The position numbers and the translations under genes were made by a program. From contig NZ_CP009888.1 in NCBI RefSeq assembly GCF_000788395.1, positions 2,190,001 through 2,254,000 of the forward strand: 64,000 bases of DNA, written 5' to 3'. The number at the start of each line of letters is the position of its first letter. The stretch's first letter is position 1. Shown piece after piece: positions 4,090-34,174 of this stretch. Under the pieces are notes generated by a model that had not been told where the DNA came from, searched no databases, and was given only the letters and a program-made list of their open reading frames with translations. Source of the DNA: Pseudoalteromonas piratica. GTDB taxonomy: Bacteria > Pseudomonadota > Gammaproteobacteria > Enterobacterales > Alteromonadaceae.

Positions 4090-4494
4090 ATGAAAATATT
4101 ACGATTCTGTCCGCTGCTGTTTAGTGCACTTTTAACCCTAGGTTGTGGGGATTTTAACCATCGAATGGCGGTTGAGAGTGAACATACAATCAAAGATTCA
4201 GCTTTTCTGTCGATTAGTAGTGCGCAAGTAATACCTGAATCAGAATTTGAAATTATCTTTGCACCATCAGAACAAGTTGAAATCACAGAAGCTCATATTG
4301 TAGGTGCCAGTATGTATATGGGGAAAATCCCGCTGTTTTTTAAGAAAACGCAAAACGGTTCACATAAAGCAATTGGCATGGTTGGGGTTTGCAGTGAAAA
4401 AGAAATGGAGTGGCAAATTCAGATCTTTTATAAAGATATGACATTACAGCAACAAAAAACCGCAACCCTAAACTTTGTTGCAACAAATGTTTAA
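4090..4494 (+). CDS. Small lipoprotein of unknown function, divergent from ccoN
   Basis: A 134-residue protein with a lipoprotein signal: hydrophobic stretch 7-18 and lipobox LTLGC with Cys19. The residue after Cys is Gly, so outer-membrane sorting is likely under the usual +2 rule. The rest is soluble and probably beta-rich. Notable residues are Met75 and Met77 in MYMGKIPLFF and Cys101 with Met106 in GVCSEKEMEW. I do not recognise a characterised family, though small proteins with a similar MxMGxIPLxF stretch occur beside cbb3 genes in related bacteria (from memory). A copper-handling role linked to the neighbouring oxidase is possible from the Met/Cys pattern but is speculation. Confidence 0.8.
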   Translation: MKILRFCPLLFSALLTLGCGDFNHRMAVESEHTIKDSAFLSISSAQVIPESEFEIIFAPSEQVEITEAHIVGASMYMGKIPLFFKKTQNGSHKAIGMVGVCSEKEMEWQIQIFYKDMTLQQQKTATLNFVATNV

Positions 4495-4892: not shown

Positions 4893-7481
4893 ATGAATAA
4901 AACTAAATTGGGTTTAGCAATTGCTACCGCGTTACCGTTGTTTTCAACAACTAATGTAATGGCAGCCGAGAGCTCAGCAGACGCCGTAGAGCGCATTGAA
5001 GTAACAGGTTCACGTATTAAGCGCGCTGACATGGAGACGGCAAGCCCAGTAACTGTAATTGGTGCAGAAGAAATTCGTGCATCAGGTGCAACATCAATTG
5101 ACTCAATTTTACAAGACATGACTGCTGCTGGCGGTGCGATGGTTAACCCAGGCATTAATAATGGTTCTGGCGGTAATGCAAGCATGAACCTACGTGGTTT
5201 AGGTGCGCAGCGTACATTAGTTCTTGTAAACGGCCGTCGTATGATCAACTCAGGTACAGGCGCTGCATCAACGGTAGATTTAAATACGATTCCTGTATCT
5301 ATGATCCAACGTGTTGAAGTACTAAAAGACGGTGCATCAGCAGTATACGGTACTGATGCTGTGGCAGGTGTTGTAAACATCATTCTTAAAAAGGACTTTG
5401 AAGGGCTAGACATGAATGCCCAAACGGGTATGTCAGGCGAAGGTGATGCGGAAGAAAGCTCAGTTGACTTTACTGTAGGTACTTCATTCGATAAAGGTAA
5501 TATCGTTCTTGGCGTACAGTACATGGACCGCGGTGAAGCATCACAAGCAGATCGTGACTTCTCTTCGTGTCCTGTATCAGAACGCACAAATGATTCGGGC
5601 GCGATAGAGTTATATTGTGGTGGTTCAAGTTACACGCCTTACGGCCATATCTGGTCAGGTGATGAATCTCTTCAAGGTAACCCGGACAATACATGGAACG
5701 ACTTTGGTGATGAAGACAAGTATAACTACTCAGCAGATAGTTACTTATTCACACCAATGAAGCGCTTAAACCTAACAGGTCTTGCAACTTACGAATTATC
5801 TGACGATACCATGTTATTCGCTGAAAGCATGTACTCAAAGCGTTGGTCAGAGCAACAAATGGCACCACAACCAGTTTGGTTTGATTTCACTTACCAAGAT
5901 TGGATGGGTGATTCACTTATTGAACATGGTGTTAACTACGGTGATGAGATTTCTTATGGCCGTCGTATGAGCGATACTGGTACGCGTGATTTCTCTCAAG
6001 TTGTTGATACAGTTCGTGTTGTAATCGGTGCGGAAGGCGTGTTATCAAATGATTGGTCATGGGATGCAGCACTTAACTTTGGTCGTAATGACTCAGTTGA
6101 CCGTTTAACCAACCTTCACAATATGGGGTCAATCCAAGAAGATATCGAGTTAGGTAACTTTAACCCGCTTGATCAAACTTCTTGGCAGTATGACAACATG
6201 CAAGGTTACCTATACACTGAGCAAAATACTGGCGGTAGCCAAATGTTAATGTTCAGCGGCTCGCTTGCAGGTGAACTACTTGAATTACCAGCAGGTTACT
6301 TAGGCTTTGCAGCAGGTGTTGAACACCGTTCTGAAAAAGCATGGTACATTCCTGATTCACTTACTGCACAAGGTCTTGCTAACGACCCTAAAGTTGAACC
6401 AACTGAAGGCCGTTATGATGTAAACGAAGCGTTTGTTGAACTTGCTATTCCAGTTTTAGCTGATAAAGCATTTGCTGAAAACCTTGAACTTAGTGCAGCT
6501 ATTCGTGCATTTGATTACTCAACATTTGGTAGCGATGCAACTTGGAAGCTTGGTTTCACTTGGAAAGTGAACAGCGACATCATGTTCCGTGGTGTAGCGT
6601 CGACTGCATTCCGCGCGCCTACCGTTGATGAATTATACGGTGGTAAATCACCTTCGTTTAACCAAGTTTCTCACCCAGTAGGTCAAGACCAAGCTGAAGT
6701 AACTGTTGGTGGTAACGCAGCATTAACACCTGAAGAAGCAGATACACTAACAGTTGGTTTTGTATATGAACCAAGCTGGTTAGATGGCGCTTCAATGACG
6801 GTAGACTACTACGATATTTCAATTGAAAACTCAATTGCAACTGTAGACAACCAGTATATTGTTGATAACTGTATTGATGCAGCGGGTAACCCAATCAATA
6901 CAGAAACAGCACTATGTAAGTCAGCTGATATCTCAATGGATAACTCGGGCCGTATCTCTTTCAACAACCAATTACAAAACATTGGTGCTGAAACTGCGCA
7001 GGGCATCGACTTAAACCTAGCGTATTCATTTGATGCATTTGGTTTAGACTGGCGCACAGCTTTAGATACAACTTACCTGATTGAAACAACTGTAACATTA
7101 ACTGATGAAACTGTTGATTATGTTGGCTTAATTACATCTGGTTCAGGTGGCTACGCTGATATCAAATCAAACCTATCTCTATCTGTTAAAGGTGATTCAT
7201 GGGATGCTAACTACAAAGCACGTTACATCTCAGGTATGGACAGCTATTCATGTTTAGATAACCCAGCTAAATGTTATGCACCAAGCACAGGCTCTGTTGT
7301 ATATCATGATATCGGTGGTGCATACCACGTATCAGAAACTGTAAAAGTATCAGCTGGTATCAATAACTTATTTGATAAGCAACCGCCATACTATTCAGGT
7401 AACAATGATTCAAATACCGACCCTTACACATACGATGTATTAGGTCGTTATTTCTACGCTGGTGTAAATGTTAAGTTCTAA
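4893..7481 (+). CDS. TonB-dependent outer-membrane receptor, substrate unknown
   Basis: An 862-residue outer-membrane beta-barrel importer driven by TonB. It has a signal peptide (about 1-24, cleavage after VMAA), a TonB-box-like segment around 33-39 (ERIEVTG), a plug domain to about residue 165 with LRGLGAQRTLVLVNGRR and VYGTDAVAGVVNI motifs, then a 22-strand-type barrel ending in an aromatic residue (GVNVKF). There is no N-terminal signalling extension, so no direct anti-sigma partnership is expected. AAAGG at 4884-4888 serves as the ribosome site. It is a single-gene unit closed by a strong terminator. No siderophore, sugar or vitamin genes lie nearby, so the substrate cannot be inferred. 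Confidence 0.95.
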   Translation: MNKTKLGLAIATALPLFSTTNVMAAESSADAVERIEVTGSRIKRADMETASPVTVIGAEEIRASGATSIDSILQDMTAAGGAMVNPGINNGSGGNASMNLRGLGAQRTLVLVNGRRMINSGTGAASTVDLNTIPVSMIQRVEVLKDGASAVYGTDAVAGVVNIILKKDFEGLDMNAQTGMSGEGDAEESSVDFTVGTSFDKGNIVLGVQYMDRGEASQADRDFSSCPVSERTNDSGAIELYCGGSSYTPYGHIWSGDESLQGNPDNTWNDFGDEDKYNYSADSYLFTPMKRLNLTGLATYELSDDTMLFAESMYSKRWSEQQMAPQPVWFDFTYQDWMGDSLIEHGVNYGDEISYGRRMSDTGTRDFSQVVDTVRVVIGAEGVLSNDWSWDAALNFGRNDSVDRLTNLHNMGSIQEDIELGNFNPLDQTSWQYDNMQGYLYTEQNTGGSQMLMFSGSLAGELLELPAGYLGFAAGVEHRSEKAWYIPDSLTAQGLANDPKVEPTEGRYDVNEAFVELAIPVLADKAFAENLELSAAIRAFDYSTFGSDATWKLGFTWKVNSDIMFRGVASTAFRAPTVDELYGGKSPSFNQVSHPVGQDQAEVTVGGNAALTPEEADTLTVGFVYEPSWLDGASMTVDYYDISIENSIATVDNQYIVDNCIDAAGNPINTETALCKSADISMDNSGRISFNNQLQNIGAETAQGIDLNLAYSFDAFGLDWRTALDTTYLIETTVTLTDETVDYVGLITSGSGGYADIKSNLSLSVKGDSWDANYKARYISGMDSYSCLDNPAKCYAPSTGSVVYHDIGGAYHVSETVKVSAGINNLFDKQPPYYSGNNDSNTDPYTYDVLGRYFYAGVNVKF

Positions 7482-7720: not shown

Positions 7721-8830
7721 ATGGGTATCATCAGGAATCGAAGTTTAATCAGTCGCGTAAAACAGCAAGAAAATCGCGTGTATGTACCGGCCGAAGCAAG
7801 GGACAACCAATACATTATCGCAGAGCTAGCAATTAATGATAATTTAATTGCACAGGTCTCAGATCACTCACTCAACCCTACACCAAAAGAATTACTGAGT
7901 TTATTACTAAACAAAGTGCGTCGTGTAATCGCACAGCATGAAATTGACTATGTTGCTGTAGTTGCATCGAATAAATTTATCCGTGTACGCTATGGTGTTG
8001 ATAATGAAATAAACACTACACAAGAACAGCACATTGTTTATTACAACCCGGAAAAGAGTAAAGGCGTTATCGGTCTTTGCCCAGAGGATACACAATCTCT
8101 AAAATCGATTAGAGTGGTGTGTTTTGCAACAGGCGATAACTTGCGAGAAAATGCAGCGCTATTTCATCAAAAAGTGACAAACTTAGTATCGGATTTAAAA
8201 CAGTCGTTTGATTTCATTGAAGCGATTAAAGTTCAAGATCATCAACACATCAGCTTTAGCTTAGAAAAACACTCGTCATCAACCAATTCAAAAGCACATG
8301 GTTTTCGCGTTATTGAAAAGCGCTATGAGAGCTCAGGTTTGGTATTGCCAGATGAACGTAACAGTAAAGCATTTATAGTTGTAAAGGCTAATTTTAGTGA
8401 ATTATTAACCGAAAAAGTACTTAATCAAAATTATGATGTAAGTCATATGCATGCAGAAATATCGCATTTATTAATTCAATTAGCGCAAGAAGTAGGCATT
8501 AATCACATGGCCTACATTGCTTCTAAACGTTATCCAGTCGTTAAATCAAATTTTGTGGTCGGCAGTGGCAATCAAAAGGGTGAACTAATTAGTTTAAATT
8601 TTGGTAATACGGAACACGAAGTCATACAACAGATTGATGATGACTACATTAATAGTAGCGCCCACATAGTGTTTTATATGCCAGAAAATACAGTAGTGAA
8701 ATTTGGTTATGCGGTTTACATCAATAAAGTCATTAAATTACTCGATAGATTAAGCCAAAAACTGCATTTAACTGAACACGACAAAGCGATGTTGCTGAGG
8801 TTCTATCAGCACTTTAGTTATAAAGCTTGA
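7721..8830 (+). CDS. DUF3083 family protein, function unknown
   Basis: A 369-residue soluble protein with no signal peptide or membrane segment. The N-terminal stretch RSLISRVKQQENRVYVP and the following residues match my memory of DUF3083, a family largely confined to Alteromonadales. Two internally similar halves can be seen: the first ends in HQHISFSL (about 188-195) and the second in FYQHFSYKA at the C-terminus, with IDYVAVVASNKFIRVRY and INHMAYIASKRYPVVKSNF as corresponding strands. This suggests an internal duplication. No catalytic motif is evident. The next gene, an isocitrate dehydrogenase-like protein, starts 56 bases downstream on the same strand. Family call moderate, function unknown. 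Confidence 0.75.
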   Translation: MGIIRNRSLISRVKQQENRVYVPAEARDNQYIIAELAINDNLIAQVSDHSLNPTPKELLSLLLNKVRRVIAQHEIDYVAVVASNKFIRVRYGVDNEINTTQEQHIVYYNPEKSKGVIGLCPEDTQSLKSIRVVCFATGDNLRENAALFHQKVTNLVSDLKQSFDFIEAIKVQDHQHISFSLEKHSSSTNSKAHGFRVIEKRYESSGLVLPDERNSKAFIVVKANFSELLTEKVLNQNYDVSHMHAEISHLLIQLAQEVGINHMAYIASKRYPVVKSNFVVGSGNQKGELISLNFGNTEHEVIQQIDDDYINSSAHIVFYMPENTVVKFGYAVYINKVIKLLDRLSQKLHLTEHDKAMLLRFYQHFSYKA

Positions 8831-8846: not shown

Positions 8847-8892
8847 TTGTCATAGTGTAAACAAAAAAGAGCCACAATTTATACTATGACAA
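8847..8892 (+). promoter_or_regulatory. 15-bp inverted repeat enclosing the start codon of the IDH-like gene
   Basis: The arms TTGTCATAGTGTAAA (8847-8861) and TTTATACTATGACAA (8878-8892) are complementary over 15 bases with a 16-base A-rich loop. The only non-Watson-Crick position is G8857-T8882, which is a G-U pair in plus-strand RNA. The right arm contains the ATG at 8886-8888 and the loop holds the only weak ribosome-site-like bases (AAGAG). In mRNA this would hide the start codon. It could instead be a DNA operator. Confidence 0.6.
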
Positions 8893-9998
8893 CACCTGAT
8901 GCCATAAGCTATACCGTTCCTTATGTGGAAGGCGATGGAGTCGGCCCACAATTAATTAATTATGCCCGTGATATAGCCGATAAGGTGATGCAAAAATGTT
9001 ACAATGGCGAGCGCACCATTGAATGGCAAGCGCTGCTATGTGGTGAAAAAGCGGCGGAAGTATATCAAGGTGATTGGTTTCCAGAGCACACACTGAATAT
9101 GATAGAACTTAGGCAGTGTGCGTTAATTGGGCCAATTACTGCACCCATTGGTTATGGTTTTAAATCGCTAAATGTTGCGCTGCGTCACGAACTTGGATTA
9201 ACCACGTCTTATACTCGTTATCAAACAGATAACGAAAGCGATATCTATGTTATCCGCGATAATAGTGAAGATTTACCCGTAAAGCTTGAATGGCAAACAG
9301 ATTCTTTTGACGGTGAATTATTAGCTAACTTTCTAAAAGATGAATTAGGTGTAAATAAAATACCGCTTGCTGAAAAAAGTGTGATGGCACTTAAATATTT
9401 ATCTAAAGCGCGTAGCGAAAAACTGCTATCTTCAGCGATTGAGCTTGCAAAATCGCGTAAAATTAAAAATGTTATAATTATTCATCACGCTAATAGTTTA
9501 CCCATTTCAGAGGGAAGCTTTGTCAGATGGGCACTGGCATCAGTTAGCAATAATGAGGACGGACAACAGCATGTAACGCCTCCCATACACCTTGATAATA
9601 TTCAAGTAGACGTGTGTTCATTGTTGCAGTTTTTCAGTCATCAAAACCATCTTAAACAAGATACGATATATGTTTGCGCTAATTATTTAGCAACCATTAT
9701 CAATGAGTTTTTTACCGGTAGTTTAGGCTTGATAAATAAAGTGAGTCAGACCAATTTCGGTAATAATATACGTATTTTTGAACCAAAACATGGGCCGCTA
9801 CACGCACTTGTGGGAAGTGATGATATTACTCCAATAGCGCTTTTAAACGCGATTATTTCATTACTTTATCATCTTGATTGTGATCTGGCAGCCAGTACTT
9901 TGGCAAAAGCCGTATTTGAAGTAGAAAAAAGCTTAAAGGATAAAGCGATATCCTTTAAGCAGTTTCAAGAAACATTGGAGTTGTCGTTATGCAGATAG
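8886..9998 (+). CDS. Isocitrate dehydrogenase-like protein, probably catalytically inactive paralogue
   Basis: 370 residues that align along most of their length with dimeric NADP isocitrate dehydrogenase of the E. coli Icd type (416 residues). Retained: EGDGVGP (15-21), SLNVALR with Ser94, Asn96 and Arg100, IRDNSEDL with Arg124, LEWQTDS, SEGSF, and Asp242 at the place of metal ligand Asp283. Replaced by my hand alignment: catalytic Tyr160 by Pro131, catalytic Lys230 by His201, metal ligands Asp307 and Asp311 by Asn266 and Thr270, and the NADP loop HGTAPKYAG by HGPLHALVG. A working monomeric isocitrate dehydrogenase is encoded at 31931-34159, so this copy is not needed for the TCA cycle. The frame is intact, suggesting selection for another role such as a pseudoenzyme, regulator or different substrate. 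Its end overlaps a convergent gene by 12 bases. Confidence 0.85.
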   Translation: MTTPDAISYTVPYVEGDGVGPQLINYARDIADKVMQKCYNGERTIEWQALLCGEKAAEVYQGDWFPEHTLNMIELRQCALIGPITAPIGYGFKSLNVALRHELGLTTSYTRYQTDNESDIYVIRDNSEDLPVKLEWQTDSFDGELLANFLKDELGVNKIPLAEKSVMALKYLSKARSEKLLSSAIELAKSRKIKNVIIIHHANSLPISEGSFVRWALASVSNNEDGQQHVTPPIHLDNIQVDVCSLLQFFSHQNHLKQDTIYVCANYLATIINEFFTGSLGLINKVSQTNFGNNIRIFEPKHGPLHALVGSDDITPIALLNAIISLLYHLDCDLAASTLAKAVFEVEKSLKDKAISFKQFQETLELSLCR

Positions 9999-10439
9999 CT
10001 TTAATTGTGCTTGATAAAACGGGCGTAAATAACTGACACACTGTTCATAAATTGCCGCTAACTTTGCTGGCAATTGAGATGTTTCTACGACCTGGGCGCT
10101 ACCTGAGGCTGCAATAAATGCCGCAAACACTAACGTGGGAGTTGGGCAGCTGTATTTATCTTTAATTTCTAGTGTTTCACCTGTTAATAGACGCTCTGTA
10201 ATGAGTGGTGTTGAAACACTTGCAAGTTCACATAAACTTTCATTACTAATTGTATGATTAGTTGTTTCGTTAATAGTTTTTCTAATTTGCCCACCAAACT
10301 CTTTCAATAGCTTGATGTAGTTTTCTATAAACAGCGCTTGGCATTCTTGGTTTTCTAAATGATAAGTTTTGTTTAATTGATTAAATAAGTTTTCTTCAAT
10401 GTATAAAAATTGATGTTTGTGAAATTGACCTGTGCTCAT
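9987..10439 (-). CDS. Hypothetical protein (150 residues), family not recognised
   Basis: The frame is open to 10508, but the ATG at 10439 (MSTGQFHKHQ) is preceded by ACGAGGAAC at good spacing, so I take it as the start. The protein is soluble and mostly helical, with no signal peptide. A C-terminal stretch around FAAFIAASGSAQVV is the most hydrophobic part. No known motif is seen. It converges on, and overlaps by 12 bases, the isocitrate dehydrogenase-like gene, and lies downstream of a LysR gene on the same strand with a 122-base gap. Function unknown. Confidence 0.7.
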   Translation of the reverse strand: MSTGQFHKHQFLYIEENLFNQLNKTYHLENQECQALFIENYIKLLKEFGGQIRKTINETTNHTISNESLCELASVSTPLITERLLTGETLEIKDKYSCPTPTLVFAAFIAASGSAQVVETSQLPAKLAAIYEQCVSYLRPFYQAQLKLSA

Positions 10440-10561: not shown

Positions 10562-11506
10562 CTAACTTGCTAATGTCATTGCAAATTCACTGAGTTGTTG
10601 CCTTAGCCAAGAATGCGCTGGATCGTAGTGTTTAATTGGGCTCCAAACCATAGATACTTCTTGTGGAACCATCTGAAAAGGTAAGGGCAGAGTCACCAAT
10701 TGTTCAGTTTGGAAACTGGCTAACGCTAATCTATTAGGGATTGTGAGTAATAAAGATGGCGACTGTGTGATCAATTTTTGAGCTTGAAAGTGTCGTGTAA
10801 ACACTTGAATATTCCGTCGTTTTTCTAATTGCCATAACGCTTCATCTAATTCACCAAGCTTGTTAGGGTGACTGTCTACTGAAATGCGATTTTCACTTGT
10901 TATGCCACTTCTACTTACCCATATATGCGGTTGCGATAAGTAGGTTTCGAGAGTTTGAGTCGCGGCGTAAGGGTTATTTTGATGGCATACAACGCGGAAA
11001 TTATCTCGCCAAAGGCGTTTTTGATGAAATGACGTGGGTGCTTGTTTAAAGCGGTTAATTGCAAGATCAACACTGCCTTCCTGTAGCTCGGTAAGGTGTG
11101 TATCGCCAGGTGAAGTAATGTTGTAGCTTAAGTTTGGATAGATTGCGGCAGTGCTTGCGATAAAAGGAAATAATAAACAGCTTTCTATGTAGTCATTAGT
11201 CAGAATTTTAAATGTATGGTTTGCAGTTTTTGGCTCAAAATGGCTATCAGATTGGGTAATAGACTCACTTAAACGAATAAATTCACTGATCTGCGGTTTT
11301 AAAGCTAATGCCTTTTCTGTTGGCTGCATACCACCGGATGTTCTAACCAATAGTGGGTCTGAAAAATACTCTCTTAATCTTTTTAATGCTGCACTTACGG
11401 TAGGCTGAGTTAATGCCAGTTTATTAGCTGCACGAGATACACTTTTTTCTTCGAGTAGAACGTTAAGGTAAACCAGTAGATTGAGATCAATATTGCGAAT
11501 ATTCAT
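10562..11506 (-). CDS. LysR-family transcriptional regulator
   Basis: A 314-residue LysR-type regulator. The N-terminal winged helix-turn-helix spans about residues 6-65 with the usual pattern VSRAANKLALTQPTVSAALKRLR followed by a wing containing DPLLVRTSGGMQPTEKA, which resembles the LeuO/NodD/NahR branch. A LysR substrate-binding domain fills residues 90-310. The ligand cannot be deduced. LysR proteins often regulate a divergent neighbour, but upstream lies only the terminator of a lipoprotein gene read in the same direction, so its target is unclear. The 150-residue gene downstream is one candidate. Confidence 0.93.
   Translation of the reverse strand: MNIRNIDLNLLVYLNVLLEEKSVSRAANKLALTQPTVSAALKRLREYFSDPLLVRTSGGMQPTEKALALKPQISEFIRLSESITQSDSHFEPKTANHTFKILTNDYIESCLLFPFIASTAAIYPNLSYNITSPGDTHLTELQEGSVDLAINRFKQAPTSFHQKRLWRDNFRVVCHQNNPYAATQTLETYLSQPHIWVSRSGITSENRISVDSHPNKLGELDEALWQLEKRRNIQVFTRHFQAQKLITQSPSLLLTIPNRLALASFQTEQLVTLPLPFQMVPQEVSMVWSPIKHYDPAHSWLRQQLSEFAMTLAS

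Positions 11507-31930: not shown

Positions 31931-34174
<2,244 letters not shown>

Follow-up and report, generated by a model that had tools for sequence, protein, structure and literature searches.

What happens to an isocitrate dehydrogenase (IDH) that has lost its catalytic residues, yet has not decayed? The question is raised by a gene of Pseudoalteromonas piratica, located in a stretch of 64,000 nucleotides (contig NZ_CP009888.1, positions 2,190,001 to 2,254,000, forward strand) that is here called the window. Its open reading frame (ORF) at 8886–9998 of the forward strand extends from an ATG start to a stop, is free of internal stops and encodes 370 amino acids, as a preliminary description made from the letters alone had stated. 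The product is called psIDH below. Judged from sequence comparison, psIDH would be a descendant of the AceK-linked dimeric Icd of the genus, turned at the old locus into a non-catalytic, carboxylate-binding pseudoenzyme that is read by a partner. We give this reading a probability of about one half.

Fold and active site

psIDH scores 96.2 bits against the Pfam family PF00180 (Iso_dh; cut-off 27). Its best relative in the PDB is E. coli Icd, a dimeric NADP-IDH of subfamily I, with 166 bits over residues 10–357, in line with the near full-length alignment already noted; the Icd fold is confident over the whole length. The scores for curated families of functional NADP-IDHs are far lower than required, 177 of 490 bits for the NCBIfam equivalog and 174 of 567 bits for a second model. 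Clear relatives are confined to six protein clusters of 53–97% identity (best 120 of 309 matches from a set of 5.8 billion); the next among the matches listed are ordinary IDHs of about 30% identity. The family considered here has seven members, six of them full. Residues were placed, in E. coli Icd numbering, by comparison of two MAFFT alignments and one hhalign alignment. The relevant positions, all on the forward strand of the window, are:

8886..9998, forward: psIDH, catalytically stripped descendant of a dimeric isocitrate dehydrogenase, 370 amino acids (ORF, profile, alignment and fold evidence)
9126..9128, forward: Ile81, replaces catalytic K100 (Ile or Val in 7/7 members; alignment)
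9138..9185, forward: residues 85–100, former phosphorylation loop and substrate helix with Ser94, Asn96 and Arg100 retained (family alignment)
9255..9257, forward: Arg124, the R153 equivalent, retained (alignment)
9276..9278, forward: Pro131, replaces catalytic Y160 (alignments)
9486..9488, forward: His201, replaces catalytic K230 (alignments)
9609..9611, forward: Asp242, perhaps what remains of metal ligand D283, its placement being ambiguous (alignments)
9693..9695, forward: Thr270, replaces metal ligand D307 (alignments)
9705..9707, forward: Glu274, replaces metal ligand D311 (alignments)
9735..9803, forward: residues 284–306, nucleotide-loop region of rewritten sequence (NKVSQTN ... PKHGPLH), for the most part invariant among the members (family alignment)

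With E. coli Icd, psIDH shares the whole fold, the order of motifs and the equivalents of S113, N115, R119 and R153; it differs in that K100, Y160, K230 and D307 are replaced and the NADP loops and C-terminal contacts rewritten or deleted. The four shared residues (Ser94, Asn96, Arg100 and Arg124), correctly named before as isocitrate-binding, are retained in 7/7 members, as are the equivalents of T104, H339 and G340. The catalytic tyrosine has become Pro131 and the catalytic lysine His201, again in 7/7 members and in every alignment, which confirms the earlier hand alignment. In E. coli Icd, the single changes Y160F and K230M nearly abolish activity. K100, which had escaped notice, is Ile in six members and Val in one; in the other sequences compared alongside it is invariant.

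A functional NADP-IDH would further be expected to bind its metal by Asp283, Asp307 and Asp311. In psIDH, D307 is Thr, Ser or Ala in 7/7 members, and D311 is Glu in 6/7 and Asp in the remaining one, P0007. The placement of D283 is ambiguous: one MAFFT alignment puts Leu or Met there, the other and hhalign put Asp or Glu (residue 242). Two metal aspartates had been reported lost as Asn266 and Thr270. This is right for Thr270, the D307 equivalent, and wrong for Asn266: it corresponds to N303, a position at which all 20 functional-type sequences of alignment A5 have Asn as well, and is therefore no lost metal ligand. The replacements of Y160, K230 and D307 agree in all three alignments. R129, R153, Y160, K230, D283, D307 and D311 are all retained in 36/36 distinct typical Icds of Pseudoalteromonas (identical proteins counted once) and in 6/6 of a second set (G008 is common to both sets).

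The rewriting of the NADP loop, likewise described before, is seen in the alignments. In the former nucleotide-loop region (E. coli 320–359), 27 of 40 positions are invariant within the family and 10 of 40 match E. coli; this region appears to have been rewritten and then held. Deletions, not reported earlier, are found at E. coli 129–138, 261–272 and 393–406.

Might psIDH catalyse something else? A repurposed enzyme could use the same fold and cradle for a different reaction, with His201, Asp/Glu242, Glu274, Lys301 and His306 as candidate groups. The replacements are indeed fixed and not random (Pro131, His201, Lys301 and His306 occur in 7/7 members), acidic residues remain near two of the metal positions, and the rewritten loops are conserved. 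However, the proton-transfer residues Y160 and K230 are gone, as is K100, and D307 is lost; Pro131 can serve neither as acid nor as base, and no known reaction fits. We consider such a change of reaction doubtful.

Selection, locus and the lost kinase

The frame of psIDH is open in all four carrying genomes, that of the window (G000), G016, G002 and G127; the stop within the G016 match is just the protein's own slightly earlier end after 366 amino acids. Homologues share the same substitutions, and random inactivating mutations were not seen in these four genomes. The pair G127/G002 has 0.019 nonsynonymous (dN) and 0.16 synonymous (dS) changes per site, hence a dN/dS of 0.12 by NG86 and 0.17 by YN00. 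Only this ratio carries weight, because the other five of the six psIDH pairs have dS values of 1.48–2.24. A close pair of canonical Icds yields 0.05. Moreover, the phosphorylation loop and substrate helix (E. coli 100–119) are invariant at 20/20 positions in the six full members.

Catalytic residues lost in all relatives, an intact frame and a dN/dS below 1 in the one unsaturated pair are what a pseudoenzyme maintained by selection would be expected to show. Simple decay was rejected in view of the four intact frames, the ratio of 0.12 and the invariant blocks, and the view of psIDH as stripped of catalysis without mere decay is, at the level of sequence, upheld. A relic in slow decay, or else an unusual active IDH misjudged by the alignments, we regard as very improbable. 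Redundant IDHs in the genome, an evolution faster than that of most neighbours and the ambiguous placements of D283 and R129 would suit it; the open frames, the low dN/dS, the relatives of 53–97% identity with the same replacements and the agreement of three alignments on Y160, K230 and D307 would not.

Where does psIDH come from? The surroundings of the gene are informative:

7721..8830, forward: DUF3083 protein, 55 bp upstream of psIDH on the same strand, candidate partner only (profile match)
9987..10439, reverse: orf173, likely to start at the ATG close to 10439, a divergent protein of the orfX family (homology to ORFs between icd and lysR)
10562..11506, reverse: LysR regulator, counterpart of the icd-linked LysR (profile match, identity)
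31946..34144, reverse: monomeric NADP-IDH (matched part), with an uninterrupted frame and a score of 1358 bits (cut-off 950; profile match)

Regions of 20 kb around canonical icd genes of the genus were compared. The order aceK, divergent lysR, orfX and convergent icd is found at eight of ten canonical loci (L101–L104, L109–L111 and L113; in L104 and L113 the ORF in the orfX position carries no homology label). L112 has neither lysR nor aceK within its stretch, L114 has the genes with an insertion, and an eleventh locus, L115, has icd and orfX only. The window presents psIDH, orf173 and lysR in the order of the icd locus, which had not been seen before. Locally, orf173 matches orfX of 12 loci with E values of 5e-5 to 4e-4, the others falling short of 0.1; the profile comparison gives E 3.6e-5 and a probability of 71%. 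The LysR shares 51–53% identity with its icd-linked counterpart in canonical genomes of the genus. Because the order is the same, orf173 is a diverged orfX and the LysR proteins correspond, psIDH very probably sits in the icd position. Both lysR and orfX are still linked to psIDH, and both have diverged in its clade. They are also found within about 7 kb of icd in G067 and G091, which belong to another family of the same taxonomic order. The orf173/orfX family diverges fast between icd and lysR, retains an EFG..R and C..P pattern and has no Pfam or NCBIfam match above cut-off.

In the Icd tree psIDH is nested within the Icds of Alteromonadales. Its stem measures 7.3 changes per column and the branches after it at most 0.9, and the program issues a warning about long branches. 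In the Mfd tree the stem of this clade measures 0.33. psIDH is present in 4/108 genomes of the genus; among 395 genomes drawn from 51 other genera of the family, none has it (E 1e-70). The four genomes form one deep clade in the Mfd tree (support 100/100), with Mfd identities to the window of 93–95% inside and 69–72% outside.

A monomeric NADP-IDH is present in 108/108 genus genomes. Besides psIDH, the window's genome contains just two PF00180 proteins: LeuB, with 513.9 bits for a cut-off of 353.2, and on the second contig a PRK08997-type IDH, with 639.6 bits for a cut-off of 510. The view that psIDH duplicates a dimeric Icd still at work in the genome was therefore rejected. The redundant IDHs possibly explain why the loss of catalysis could be afforded.

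A dimeric Icd was detected in at least 56 genus genomes, 50 at a cut of 1e-60 and the weaker ones of G003, G007, G008, G017, G034 and G141; the number is a lower bound, because weaker Icds accompanied by a single AceK could be missed in G099–G146. Two AceK matches occur in 51 of the 56. A single one is found in G017, where it is the icd-linked copy, and in four genomes whose Icd has Phe at position 160 (see below). A tree of 19 AceK sequences divides into two old types with support 100/100; it excludes G016, whose match falls into two frames, and G132, whose match is incomplete. On one side are nine icd-linked copies, namely those of the eight two-AceK genomes (of 51) for which the second copy was placed in the tree and that of G017; on the other are four distant copies and six sole copies, three from psIDH genomes and three from Y160F genomes. 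Since their tested sole copies group with the distant type, the psIDH and Y160F clades are both without the icd-linked kinase; its absence had escaped the earlier description. Many Pseudoalteromonas genomes contain both ancient types (L101–L104, L109–L111, L113 and L114), the first next to lysR-orfX-icd and the second at a distance from it; genomes that have no dimeric Icd can also carry the second, distant type. The split match of G016 (L127 and L128, overlapping frames at C102:53734-54546) may reflect a frameshift or an assembly error.

As to features of an AceK substrate, psIDH retains Ser94 (S113) and has in 7/7 members lost residues 261–272 of a variable region resembling the AceK-recognition region of Icd, which is described in PMC3521221. 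The deletion disfavours a role as AceK decoy. We presume that 261–272 lies within the recognition segment.

The Icds with Phe at position 160, a clade with a single catalytic change that had not been noticed before, may be a half-way state. They occur in four genus genomes, G011, G053, G132 and G040 (L007, L008, L051 and L021), and P0134–P0139 have the same Phe, 5/6 of them from named Pseudoalteromonas strains (best 120 of 2244 matches). With psIDH they share a shortened N-terminus, the lysR-orfX-icd order, the lack of an adjacent aceK (in all four genomes) and five exclusive residues; they differ by retaining K100, K230 and the three metal Asp and are only 31–33% identical to it. Their dN/dS is 0.05–0.07 in three pairs, with dS 0.56 in one and above 1 in two. 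For one of these Icds the NADP-IDH model, which requires 490 bits, gives 337. Counted strictly, two-group residues number five for psIDH with Y160F, five for Y160F with typical Icds and none for psIDH with typical Icds; counted loosely, psIDH shares 12 with Y160F and two with typical Icds. The Icd tree puts the Y160F group within the typical Icds (95/99), on very long branches. A single clade of psIDH and Y160F is not rejected by the approximately unbiased test (p 0.57), and that tree is 1.15 log units higher; the Mfd tree joins the two clades with a support of just 42/10. One stepwise path or two parallel ones are both possible. Typical genus Icds (L014, L018 and others) have an unusual cofactor motif, R344, I345, A351 and F391, where E. 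coli has K, Y, V and Y.

The neighbours of psIDH

DUF3083 adjoins psIDH in 4/4 genomes. Contigs of 3169 bases are the reported source of both a DUF3083 protein with 63% identity and a psIDH with 57%, which suggests, without proving it, that the linkage exists in a more distant relative. The DUF3083 model has no whole-protein structural match (TM score at most 0.25 in the best-ranked hits), local hits are unconvincing (e.g., 9gad_D with TM 0.61 on a 130-residue target, E 0.07), and the name was not found in the literature searched. The sole copy of the psIDH genomes is 23–29% identical to those of other genus members. A divergence of DUF3083 in parallel with that of psIDH was considered and dropped: in four of five loci examined, the ordinary genus copy adjoins a gene that by eye only resembles glnS. 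The window copy may belong to another DUF3083 type.

The neighbours bear on the proposal that psIDH has only a structural role, as scaffold or partner, its surface being retained for protein binding and the pocket just as a requirement of the fold. The overall fold is kept, the diverged lysR and orfX are still linked, and DUF3083 is adjacent even, as it seems, on the short contigs. Yet conservation is strongest in the pocket, no conserved surface patch was identified, and an AceK-bound role is disfavoured by the deletion of 261–272. We deem a scaffold rather improbable.

Further upstream, orf134 (4090–4494, forward), without Pfam match, is 47–60% identical across the four genomes except in the close pair. 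The gene at 4893–7481 (forward), by eye a TonB-dependent receptor, is 97% identical to that of G016 and 68% to those of G002 and G127, and the flanking ccoN is 99–100% identical among the genomes; the pattern looks like a sign of replacement or recombination.

A possible mechanism and its meaning

That psIDH descends from an Icd, has lost catalytic residues and is under selection are results of computation, whereas the mechanism is what we infer. A non-catalytic regulator that binds a carboxylate fits because the cradle is retained, the chemistry removed and the cofactor loops rewritten and then held. psIDH would still be an interlocked dimer and would close on a small di- or tricarboxylate without redox chemistry, the ligand being held by Ser94, Asn96, Arg100 and Arg124. 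The former NADP loops, rewritten and conserved, might accommodate a different ligand or keep the protein in a single conformation. A partner would read the shape that depends on the ligand; the products of DUF3083, orfX and lysR are the first candidates for this role. That isocitrate or a related acid is sensed, as had been proposed, is plausible from the residues retained.

Several observations weigh against this reading. R129 is displaced or lost: it aligns with Thr110, a change not reported before; because an invariant Arg111 is next to it, the third of the arginines for carboxylate binding may still be there, shifted in register. The block 100–119 is the most conserved one in ordinary Icds as well (19/20), so that conservation of the cradle alone does not prove binding. 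In the pair G127/G002, psIDH evolves faster than five of six neighbours (0.12 versus 0.02–0.05), the sixth, orf134, having 0.52 on a dS of just 0.02; the constraint is real but weaker than on most neighbours. Finally, DUF3083 ends in a weak terminator-like stem and psIDH is preceded by a promoter-like site, the latter from a scan that found promoters below chance level, so that co-transcription of the two genes is uncertain.

The closest parallel is provided by the regulatory subunits of eukaryotic NAD-IDHs (human IDH3 beta and gamma, yeast IDH1), paralogues with IDH fold that are regulatory, not catalytic; according to PMC9731866, citrate binds to an allosteric site formed with gamma. psIDH may work like these subunits but is not one of them, because it belongs to another subfamily (36.5 bits to IDH3 gamma and 42.8 to yeast subunit 1, versus 166 to E. 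coli Icd) and they act in a hetero-oligomer with a catalytic paralogue, a partner not known for psIDH. Among the open-licence papers listed, none describes a bacterial pseudo-IDH in its title or in the opening of its abstract; most subscription papers could not be searched.

Tentatively, and with more against than for it, Pseudoalteromonas might preserve the stages of such a conversion: an Icd with its own AceK, a Tyr-to-Phe Icd without it, and a selected, carboxylate-binding pseudoenzyme that reports levels of tricarboxylic acid (TCA) cycle acids via DUF3083, orfX or LysR, as an independent bacterial counterpart of the eukaryotic subunits. An annotation as dehydrogenase at family level would be misleading for psIDH. 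As a rule, a pseudoenzyme comes to notice when its origin already lies far back. In this case one culturable genus contains the ancestral locus, the ancestral regulator (the icd-linked AceK paralogue), a possible intermediate and also the end state, which makes the order of redundancy, kinase loss, loss of Tyr160 and loss of all catalysis testable. Should psIDH bind TCA acids, the IDH fold would have given rise to a metabolite sensor of a kind new for bacteria.
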